Under the pieces are notes generated by a model that saw only the letters and a program-made list of their open reading frames with translations, did not search any database and was not told the DNA's origin. A DNA stretch of 63,034 bases from Lachnospiraceae bacterium (lineage in GTDB: Bacteria > Bacillota > Clostridia > Lachnospirales > Lachnospiraceae), in NCBI GenBank assembly GCA_017474455.1, contig JAFVHP010000035.1, forward strand, positions 1 through 63,034. The letters are read 5' to 3'. The translations under genes were made by a program, and so were the position numbers. Of this stretch, positions 19,668-48,177 are shown one piece after another. How positions within the stretch are numbered: the first letter of the stretch is position 1; each line of letters begins with the position of its first letter.

Positions 19668-19787
19668 GGCAGCGGGATGCGGGACGGATACCGCAGGTCA
19701 GCCCTTTTCGTCCGGCTGTCAACTCCCTGTACAGCCGGCACTTTTGCCACGGGATCCCGTGGACTACGCATCCGTTCCTACTCTGCC
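19668..19787 (-). promoter_or_regulatory. Tetrahydrofolate (THF) riboswitch
   Basis: On the minus strand the leader fits the THF aptamer. P1 is closed by GGCAG/CUGCC. GAGUAG follows. P2 is ACGGAU/AUCCGU around GCGU and GCGGU. AAGUG starts P3 (CCGGCUGU/ACAGCCGG) with loop ACAGGGAGUUG. Then come ACGAA and a short stem, and the 3' side ends in GCAUCCCGCUGCC. These are the family's conserved blocks in the right order. An extra 16-base self-complementary hairpin (CCACGGGA/UCCCGUGG) is inserted between GCGU and AAGUG. Upstream, TTGCGT, 17 bases and TATATT (19840-19812) could be the promoter. Folate sufficiency would shut off folT. Confidence 0.85.
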
Positions 19788-46259: not shown

Positions 46260-46380
46260 CCATCGGGTACGGGTTGATAAAGTGTTTTGGCAGTTTCAGG
46301 GGATGTATCAAGCTTTGGGGGACAGAGGACTGCAGGGGTGCCTGAGTTGCTGGTGTGTTGTTTCGTCTATTGTTATTTGC
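46260..46380. other. Noncoding stretch before the repeat arrays
   Basis: About 120 bases between the flavoprotein promoter region and the 47-bp repeats. G/T-rich on the plus strand; I see no gene or clear signal in it. Confidence 0.4.
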
Positions 46381-46518
46381 TTTGTTTCTTGTATTGTTTT
46401 TTGTGTTGCTATTGTGTTGCTATTTGATTTGTTTCTTGTATTGTTTCTTGTATCGCTTTTGTGTTGCTATTGGATTTGTTTCTTGTATCGTTTCTTGTAT
46501 TGCGCTTTATATTCGGCT
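46381..46518. repeat. 47-bp tandem repeat, about three copies
   Basis: The word TTTGTTTCTTGTATYG begins at 46381, 46428 and 46475, exactly 47 bases apart. Each unit is pyrimidine/T-G rich and has a second block around TTTTGTGTTGCTATTG. The third unit decays into the start of the 52-bp array (ATTCGGCTTAGATA at 46511-46524). No protein is encoded: the period is not a multiple of 3. Confidence 0.8.
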
Positions 46519-47075
46519 TAGATACTTGTTTTTCTTAGCCAGGCCGTCGCTTTTGCTTATTTTGTCGGCCTATTTGGTAATTCTGGCTTTTCAGGCCGTC
46601 ACATTCCTCTTATTTTTCGGCCTAGATAGCAAGTACAGTCATTTAGGCCGTCGCTTCCTCTCCATTTTTCGGCTTAGATAGCAAGTATAGCAATTCAGGC
46701 CGTCGCATCCCCTTCTATTTTCGGCTTAGATAGCAAGTATAGCAATTCAGGCCGTCGTATCCTCTCCTATTTTCGGCTTGTTTAGCAATTCCAGCCCTCC
46801 AGGCCGTCTCTTTCCTCTCATTTTTCGGCCCATCCGACGATTCTTGCCATCTAGGCCGTCGCTTCCTCTCTTCCTTTCGGCTTAGATAGCAAGTATAGCA
46901 ATTCAAGCCGTCGCATCCCCTTCTTTTATCGGCCTATTTAGTAATTCTGGCACTTCAGGCCGTCGCATCCCCTCTTTTTTTCGGCTCAGATAGCAAGAAT
47001 AGCAATTCAAGCCGTCACACCCCCCTTCATTTTTCGGCCTGCCCAACCGGATCAGTCCTTCAGGCCGAACCCGCC
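46519..47075. repeat. 52-bp tandem array, ten full units, conserved 30-base part plus variable 22-base part
   Basis: Units begin at 46541, 46593, 46645, 46697, 46749, 46801, 46853, 46905, 46957 and 47009, nine at exactly 52 bases and the last 53, with partial units at both ends. Each starts A(G/A)GCCGTC, runs through a pyrimidine-rich stretch to TTTTCGGC(C/T), then has a 22-base segment. GGCCG and CGGCC form a dyad about 20 bases apart in each unit. Three 22-base segments are identical (46675, 46727, 46883), two are close variants, and the others differ strongly while keeping length. The period rules out coding. The array ends 40 bases from the stop of the nuclease-like gene. Confidence 0.9.
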
Positions 47076-47101
47076 GTTGACCCACTGCCCCGCTGACTTG
47101 T

Positions 47102-47902
47102 TCATTCTTCACCCAGCAGGCAATGCCTTATGATGCTCTTCAACACCCGCACGTTCAAAGGGGCATCATTTGACTCCGCAGTGAAAATAATGTTCTCGCC
47201 CGGAAAATAACCGTTCATTATGTACGCTGCCTGTTTCTTCAGGGCTGACGCGGCATAATCCGGATCGTCCATCATGCCCAAGTGTTCCCAGATGACTTCT
47301 TTACGGGTCCGCGGGTCCAGAATGGTGAAATCAGGAAAGACTCTGCCGAATCCTGTTAAGAGAACAGGACATTCATATTTGTAATGTATGCCTTCTTTAA
47401 ACAGCAGGTTCGCGATTATCATCTCTGATTTTGAACGGACGCGTTCTCCTTTATCCGTATAAAACTCCGGAGCGCCGTCTGCAAATGGTTTTCCTTCATA
47501 CTCAGTTTCTTCCCATTTACGGACTGCTTCTTCAATTGGTTCTACAACAGGAGAGACGAGCAGTTTCCTGCTTTTCGGCATCCTGTTATAGATATCCTCC
47601 GCGATAACAGGCGGCAGAGACCGCAGATATCTGTCGATCGCGCCTAGTTCCTTCTCGATCGCTTCGCAGAGTTTCCGGTCATAGTCTTTCTGGCCCAGTA
47701 CATAAGCAGCATCCATGTGTTCCCGGTCAAGATATGTGCCGTCTGCCGTGGTAAAGTCAGTTTTCAGATAGTACTGCGGCTTTCCGCAGCGTGAACTGAC
47801 CCTGAGCTTTCCGGGCGGTGCAGCATCCAATCGGTGTTTTGTTTTCTCTAACAGGTTTTCAAGATACTCTTTTCTTTTCATGATCTGATCATAGACAGGC
47901 AT
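47102..47902 (-). CDS. PD-(D/E)XK nuclease-like protein of unknown role
   Basis: A 266-residue protein. The start is MPVYDQIMKRKEY (47902), with GGGAGG 7 bases upstream; the longer frame to 47959 has none. The N-terminal half is helical and coiled-coil-like (KRKEYLENLLEKTKHRL, LGQKDYDRKLCEAIEKEL). The C-terminal half fits a restriction-endonuclease fold: Glu in RSKSEMIIANLLF, Asp in VFPDFTILDP, Glu in EVIWEHLGMMDDPDY, then a Lys-rich helix. This resembles the core of PD-(D/E)XK nucleases with the last Lys replaced or displaced. Such small proteins are common in Lachnospiraceae without assigned function. The 52-bp array lies immediately downstream on its transcript strand. Confidence 0.65.
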   Translation of the reverse strand: MPVYDQIMKRKEYLENLLEKTKHRLDAAPPGKLRVSSRCGKPQYYLKTDFTTADGTYLDREHMDAAYVLGQKDYDRKLCEAIEKELGAIDRYLRSLPPVIAEDIYNRMPKSRKLLVSPVVEPIEEAVRKWEETEYEGKPFADGAPEFYTDKGERVRSKSEMIIANLLFKEGIHYKYECPVLLTGFGRVFPDFTILDPRTRKEVIWEHLGMMDDPDYAASALKKQAAYIMNGYFPGENIIFTAESNDAPLNVRVLKSIIRHCLLGEE

Positions 47903-47960
47903 AGGCTTTCCTCCCGGCAGCGGATTTCCAAAGAAATGCAAAGAAATGAAATGAGACAAG

Positions 47961-47994: not shown

Positions 47995-48098
47995 ATTGAG
48001 ATAGTATCGAATTGATCCGTTAAGTGCAAGGTCTGAAAGCAAGCCCTGTATACTTTTTTGTCTTTCAAGCTGTCACCAGCCATGCTTCTTCTGCCAGG

Positions 48099-48177
48099 CC
48101 CTGATCGCCAAACCCTGATCGCCAGCATGATCACCAAACCCTGATCACCAACCCCTGAGCATCATGCCCTGATCGTC
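48099..48177. repeat. Degenerate 14-bp minisatellite at the 3' end of the MATE fusion gene
   Basis: Five to six imperfect copies of a unit like CCCTGATCRCCAAA run from 48099 to 48177. The last copy lies within the final codons of the MATE fusion gene, suggesting the repeat grew by slippage from the gene's own 3' end. Confidence 0.6.

Follow-up and report, generated by a model that had tools for sequence, protein, structure and literature searches.

Bacterial intergenic tandem repeats are usually regarded as products of slippage, and RAYT enzymes are proteins of the HUH/Y1 kind. In the RAYT (TnpA-REP)/REPIN system, the main text of PMC3116915 describes an enzyme gene flanked by palindromic repeats that form a dispersed population in the genome, with the type of repeat going with the enzyme; the word 'helical' does not occur in that main text. 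STAR elements of Staphylococcus are described in PMC3532100 as a short GC-rich motif with long, locus-specific spacers, intergenic and variable in copy number. The 14 bp consensus is T(G/A/T)TGTTG(G/T)GGCCC(C/A) and the spacer at gapR is 40-44 bp, which by our own sum of the published figures gives a unit of about 54-58 bp at gapR. No paired arms are mentioned in the passages on STAR, and the word 'nuclease' is absent from the main text of that paper. BrickBuilt, a minisatellite MITE of Porphyromonas gingivalis, is a species-specific, dispersed intergenic tandem repeat of 23-bp units without spacers, with a leader and a tail that have small inverted ends; its abstract names no linked enzyme (PMC4596501).

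The array described here lies beside a gene for a stand-alone nuclease on a Lachnospiraceae contig, of which we analysed a stretch of 63,034 nucleotides (the window). As in RAYT/REPIN, one enzyme gene is flanked by repeats that are also dispersed in the genome. Unlike RAYT/REPIN, the enzyme is PD-(D/E)XK-like rather than HUH/Y1, and the units are repeated in tandem at a pitch of whole helical turns. At E 0.01, no Pfam family matched more than one of 47 homologues of the enzyme; its nuclease end matched a PD-DEXK model instead. By analogy, the system seems to work like RAYT/REPIN without being a member of it. Window-type arrays resemble STAR elements as described in having a short GC-rich motif and long, locus-specific spacers, in being intergenic and in their variable copy number, but their arms, ARGCCG and CGGCYT, do not fit the published STAR consensus. 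They resemble BrickBuilt, as its abstract and description present it, in being species-specific, dispersed intergenic tandem repeats, and differ from it in their linked nuclease and in having spacers. In the open-access literature we found no description of a system combining a nuclease with phased arrays, and the system is apparently undescribed so far.

The window array and the adjoining nuclease gene

The array comprises ten tandem units at positions 46541..47061, with no strand assigned. Each unit consists of an arm ARGCCG, N18, an arm CGGCYT and a 22-bp segment; the two arms alternate, with an outer span of 30 bp and the 22-bp segments between. The units start at 46541, 46593, 46645, 46697, 46749, 46801, 46853, 46905, 46957 and 47009, and the ten intervals up to a closing arm AGGCCG (47062..47067) are nine of 52 bp and one of 53 bp, the last. 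These starts confirm the count of ten units and the pitch of 52 bp, with one of 53, that had been proposed from the sequence alone. The ends proposed in that sequence-only reading, 46519 and 47102, were slightly off: the array opens with a half unit at 46514..46540 (strand likewise unassigned), in which a CGGCTT arm is joined to a segment like the 22-bp ones, and ends with the closing arm. TRF called the array at 46540-47040 with period 52 (score 349) and again at 46590-47040 with period 104 (score 433). The autocorrelation score of the array was 174, compared with a maximum of 14 among 26 shuffled 1200-bp flanks.

Units 3, 4 and 7 have one and the same 22-bp segment and units 2 and 9 close variants of it, just as the sequence-only reading had it, and segments are alike in other units as well. 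The same reading was right that unrelated spacers are lacking. The array has the repeat-and-spacer look of a CRISPR array, but this identification was rejected because the segments are related to one another. Of the two annotated neighbours, one is an FAD oxidoreductase and the other a MATE transporter, and neither of these two is an adaptation-type gene. Array and gene are flanked by other short tandem repeats, 12/47-bp repeats of the TTGTTTCTTGTATTG type at 46354-46503 on the array side and 14-bp repeats of the GCCAAGCCCTGATC type at 48093-48175 on the other; by eye, similar short repeats also stand beside the arrays on contigs C21 and C39 of the same genome. At the Rfam gathering score, the only match in the whole window was a THF riboswitch at 19668-19787 on the minus strand (66.7 bits, gathering score 36), and the array itself was unmatched.

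The array sits 3′ of the nuclease gene, which lies on the minus strand at 47102..47902, ends at 47102 and encodes 266 amino acids from an ATG at 47902; the open frame continues as far as a TTG at 47959. The protein matched no family of Pfam or NCBIfam. Residues 148-261 matched the PADLOC model PDC-S68 (E=1.2e-28), the protein matched the PADLOC model HEAT_CxxC_PDDEXK (E=2.3e-5), and the nuclease end is also similar to the PADLOC candidate defence model PDC-S69. The PADLOC model proteins are much larger, and the domain match reaches only one end of them. We infer that PDC-S68 carries a PD-(D/E)XK domain. Residues K158, E160, D191 and E206 are invariant across the 47 homologues and are probably the catalytic residues. 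Sequence similarity and acidic core residues together would place the product in the PD-(D/E)XK superfamily. A profile search of solved chains gave three matches, all with E above 0.2. Lachnospiraceae and other Clostridia have homologues, as do Treponema, Sphaerochaeta and Fibrobacter. A relative with 33.7% identity over 94% of the query is encoded at 380-1123 of MT839528.1, a 4.2 kb sequence labelled Bacteriophage sp. that may really be a bacterial fragment. The other matches in phages (2), plasmids (8) and viral contigs (9) were to the nuclease end only.

Array pitch beside homologous genes

We sampled 130 copies of the gene family, which became 120 distinct copies when those with a common gene sequence (80-mer) were merged; the merged duplicates were partly the same contig met twice (for example L005/L155, L031/L162, L032/L188 and L051/L163). 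The genomes are mostly metagenome assemblies, one per species, with contigs that break in arrays. Arrays were counted as near when they lay within 600 bp of the gene and had an autocorrelation score of at least 40, and there were 83 of them at the 130 copies and 80 after merging. An array of 50-90 bp pitch was present within 600 bp of 53 of the 120 distinct copies (56 of 130 before merging), and on both sides of the gene in seven copies. Strong arrays were seen in Bacillota only. All pitches in the 50-90 bp class were 52-53, 62-65, 73-74 or 84-86 bp, corresponding to 5, 6, 7 and 8 turns of B-DNA, with mean pitches of 52.5, 63.6, 73.6 and 85.0 bp respectively.

Over the wider range of 45-110 bp there were 66 near arrays, with pitches (number of arrays in brackets) of 45 (2), 52 (6), 53 (10), 62 (4), 63 (7), 64 (19), 65 (1), 73 (4), 74 (5), 84 (2), 85 (3), 86 (2) and 105 (1) bp. 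Their best common period was 10.55 bp, with a phase near zero and R=0.885. Merging of copies left 63 arrays with R=0.881, and a set of 49 non-redundant families (one array per copy, kin removed) gave R=0.864 with the same best period of 10.55 bp. The maximum R for 49 families in 2000 uniform simulations, with periods of 6-20 bp scanned, was 0.47. The idea of helical phasing, which the sequence-only reading had drawn from one array, is therefore strongly supported beyond it: next to homologous genes, pitches of at least 45 bp gather around whole multiples of some 10.5 bp.

Several results stand against the reading favoured below. No 50-90 bp array was found at score 40 within 600 bp of 67 of the 120 distinct copies, 17 of the 83 near arrays were off-phase (none of these with a period above 45 bp), and 12 loci of Fibrobacter and spirochaetes had no score-40 array. 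Some of the Fibrobacter and spirochaete loci had weaker word recurrences, at distances that included 73-75, 83-85 and 95-96 bp. Shared words were slightly over-represented at phased distances in those 74 members of the 130-copy set that lack a strong array (R=0.13, p ~3e-4, with kinship ignored).

In 234 control windows at the same loci, all over 2.5 kb away from the gene, there were 13 arrays; four were in the 45-110 bp range (63, 64, 73 and 73 bp), and these were phased too. A random 420 kb from seven gene-bearing congeners, a small sample, yielded 13 tandem arrays of 45-130 bp, only six of them phased, which again speaks against the favoured reading. The phased periods were 52, 63, 63, 64, 74 and 124 bp, where one 63-bp array may be coding and the other adjoins the 64-bp one; the unphased periods were 48 (three times), 61, 69, 79 and 80 bp. 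Five arrays were found in a similarly small random sample of 380 kb from five genomes without a full-length nuclease copy, one phased (53 bp) and four not (45, 48, 51 and 87 bp). Also on the opposing side is a 53-bp array in genome G067 (L259:18097-18249), with arms TGTCTGCC...GGCAGACA; the search for the nuclease in this genome turned up no more than a partial match, within a long frame.

The number of turns per unit agrees with the nuclease tree. On a tree of 53 rows the turn class required 14 changes, compared with a mean of 23.8 when the classes were shuffled, and without near copies (45 rows) it required 13 compared with 20.2; in each case none of 200 shuffles was as low. Loci with like units lie close together on the tree (L043/L044/L049, L035/L056, L070/L077 and L051/L060, the likeness in the three pairs being judged by eye). 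The 8-turn class alone did not cluster, and L054, which has the arms of L043/L044/L049 but falls outside their clade, counts against the favoured reading. Pitch class on the tree is clustering, not proof of recognition. When neighbouring genes of the 130 copies were clustered over about 5 kb (1.5 kb or less for short loci), no gene family was common to the set; the largest cluster, ABC-transporter-like by eye, covered 17 loci at a median distance of 3 kb. Since pitch class follows the phylogeny of the nuclease and no other family is common to the loci, the nuclease is the natural candidate for the reader of the arrays. The tie between array and nuclease-like gene, first suggested by their adjacency in the window, is supported in other genomes and by the nuclease tree.

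Arms and dispersed arrays within genomes

Dyads and arm distances were analysed in the 130-copy set. The consensus of 25 of 63 arrays contained a perfect inverted repeat of 7 bp or longer, compared with 3.3 expected from shuffles. Against the favoured reading, 26 of the 63 had no 6-bp perfect dyad, the window array among them; by this inverted-repeat measure the window consensus has only a 4-bp perfect dyad. For 35 arrays that have arms, we took the arm distance closest to 30 bp; its mean deviation from that value was 2.86 bp, compared with 5.55 for the null (minimum 3.00 in 2000 draws), the value of 30 bp having been chosen after seeing the data. Units were split into 23+30 bp at L054, 28+35 at L038, 31+42 at L077 and 33+52 at L029, and the quantised quantity is the whole unit. 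About 28 different arm sequences were counted across the arrays. Three arrays of 73-74 bp units from different genomes (L070, L076 and L077) have an inner CCTCAG/CTGAGG dyad in common, and paired changes distinguish the outer arms of L070 from those of L077 (TACAGCCC/GGGCTGTA and TTATAGCC/GGCTATAA).

A pattern search with the arms and pitch of the window array showed that these recur at five or six places in its own genome, on the window contig C17 and on contigs C15, C21, C23, C39 and C47. Because C15 and C47 end inside arrays with common units, they may be one place, hence the two figures. The contigs C15 (L130 end), C47 (L134 end) and C21 (L131 start) break inside arrays, and the units common to C15 and C47 suggest that one array may span between two convergent genes. 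The family was revealed only by this pattern of arms plus spacing; a DNA search with the whole window against 60 other genomes gave no match. Intervals between like arms were 52 bp in 70 of 86 cases (no register filter, C47 left out), and the remainder were 10, 14, 38, 39, 51, 53, 70, 104 and 108 bp. Comparison of the window array with the other arrays of the genome gave 27-37% identity for the 19-bp interior (21-33% for shuffled letters) and 42-46% for the 25-bp interior (26-27% for shuffled letters). One interior is therefore near chance and the other weakly conserved, and length has been kept despite the divergence of the interiors.

The genome has four copies of the nuclease gene, on C17, C42, C29 and C6, and none on the other contigs with window-type arrays. 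These arrays stand in differing gene contexts, at four or five places without an adjacent nuclease copy. A strong phased array was found only at the window copy and none at C42, which counts against the favoured reading. Upstream of the C29 copy (L185) is a three-unit array of 45 bp, or 4.3 turns, which is unphased. The C6 copy has a degenerate 63/64-bp array upstream, in which the 7-mer AATATGT recurs at intervals of 128, 64, 63 and 64 bp.

Among 61 genomes, a two-unit pattern with zero mismatch matched the own genome alone. With one mismatch, 18 of 62 genomes matched, the 17 others with at most three scattered forward matches each (reversed controls gave at most four), and a window-type array was found in none of 61 congeners. 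At the level of the order 3 of 392 genomes matched, the two besides the own genome with single matches each.

Arms mostly differ between genomes. In the five genomes for which places were listed (the own genome, G453, G456, G457 and G459), the family is dispersed at constant spacing; for G454 and G455 match counts were obtained, and the places listed in that group were those of G453 and G456. The arms of L043, L044, L049 and L054 recurred 37-50 times per genome in their four genomes, with zero matches in three other genomes and in reversed controls. At 20 fetched places in G453, the like-arm interval was 53 bp in 74 of 82 cases, where the pattern allowed 28-80 bp; 12 of the 20 arrays had no overlapping open frame of at least 80 codons, and eight were overlapped wholly or partly. 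Units in G453 were up to 94-100% alike between places, beside others under 50%, which suggests that units spread within the genome. The arms of the isolate Lachnospiraceae bacterium P6A3 (L077, G459) gave 35 matches at 12 listed places, two by the gene, with a pitch of 72-74 bp, and those of L038 gave 25 matches in its genome on four contigs including its own. The searches with L077 and L038 arms produced one single match in other genomes and one in a reversed control.

Readings of the phased arrays

On balance we think it probable, with considerable room for doubt, that the array is cognate DNA of a solitary nuclease family and that each genome carries its own dispersed arrays, maintained in a REPIN-like manner. 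A unit would typically consist of two inverted arms about 30 bp apart and a linker, the whole unit amounting to an integral number of helical turns. Like arms would then face the same side of double-stranded DNA, which points to a protein assembly on DNA and not to RNA. The nuclease, as a dimer or oligomer, could recognise arms in a cooperative way along a single face of the helix. Further along this line, the enzyme might cut or nick arrays, and repair that draws on other copies might then expand arrays in place and seed new ones, and the result would be a REPIN-like population of repeats served by one enzyme gene.

Phasing and gene linkage would be equally expected if the arrays were architectural, the phased sites holding the nuclease or a nucleoid protein of the host in a filament that regulates or sequesters it, for example in defence, with no spread driven by an enzyme. 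The similarity of the nuclease end to PDC-S68 and PDC-S69 agrees with this, as does the excess of 50-90 bp arrays upstream of the gene (40, compared with 20 downstream). We regard it as unlikely, though a serious alternative, since the many copies far from the gene and the near-identical units of G453 require some process of spreading, and the PADLOC matches reach one end only of the larger model proteins. Quantisation near 10.5 bp is expected too if phasing only reflects how the units were born, from tiny circles of double-stranded DNA or from paired cuts, both favoured at whole turns, and nothing binds afterwards. The exact spacing in arrays with one interior close to chance similarity, together with the intervals of 64, 63 and 64 bp kept by the 7-mer in the degenerate C6 array, looks instead like constraint after birth, and makes this explanation rather improbable.

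A function in RNA, with transcripts folding as chains of hairpins, was the alternative offered in the sequence-only reading. It has in its favour the inverted arms, folds of the window array that beat all 100 shuffles (z -2.86 on the minus strand, -4.91 on the plus strand) and some coupling of arm changes. With arms kept in register within 1 bp only, A coincided with T across the 22-bp segment in 5 of 12 cases in the own genome and G with T in 3 of 33, and across the other segment in 1 of 11 and 5 of 33 respectively; covariation in this genome is thus weak, with some coupling across the 22-bp segment. But it is hard to see what a whole-turn pitch would mean for single-stranded hairpins, the stems are short, both strands fold and the arrays of the genome stand in different gene contexts, so that the hairpin chain is the weaker explanation and a very improbable one. 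An ordinary minisatellite produced by slippage is less probable still: it would fit the patchy similarity of units, the other short tandem repeats on both sides and the unphased tandem arrays in random stretches of congeners, but not the pitch law, the gene linkage or a spacing that is exact where the sequence is not conserved. The marks of a minisatellite named beforehand were random sites, the lack of a conserved neighbour and the lack of covariation, and the outcome was mixed: in their own genome window-type arrays stand apart from any nuclease copy at four or five places and arm covariation is weak, but over the range of genomes the gene is often found together with arrays of its kind. The sequence-only reading is therefore partly supported as a whole, its phasing having been borne out in a more general form and its tie to the nuclease supported.

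If the arrays are indeed the cognate DNA of the nuclease, the two may make up a new genetic element of two parts, a proposal on which we are close to evenly divided. In it, a solitary nuclease would measure repeat length in whole turns and would maintain, spread and phase the dyad arrays specific to its own genome; the element would be widespread in Bacillota, perhaps with weaker arrays in Fibrobacter and Treponema. Repeat length here follows a physical rule in that it comes in multiples of the helical repeat, and the length class tracks the phylogeny of the linked enzyme. This raises the testable question of which protein reads the arrays, and whether enzymes make and keep bacterial minisatellites. 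The enzyme/site pairs, with their many arm sequences, are a source for learning rules of recognition.
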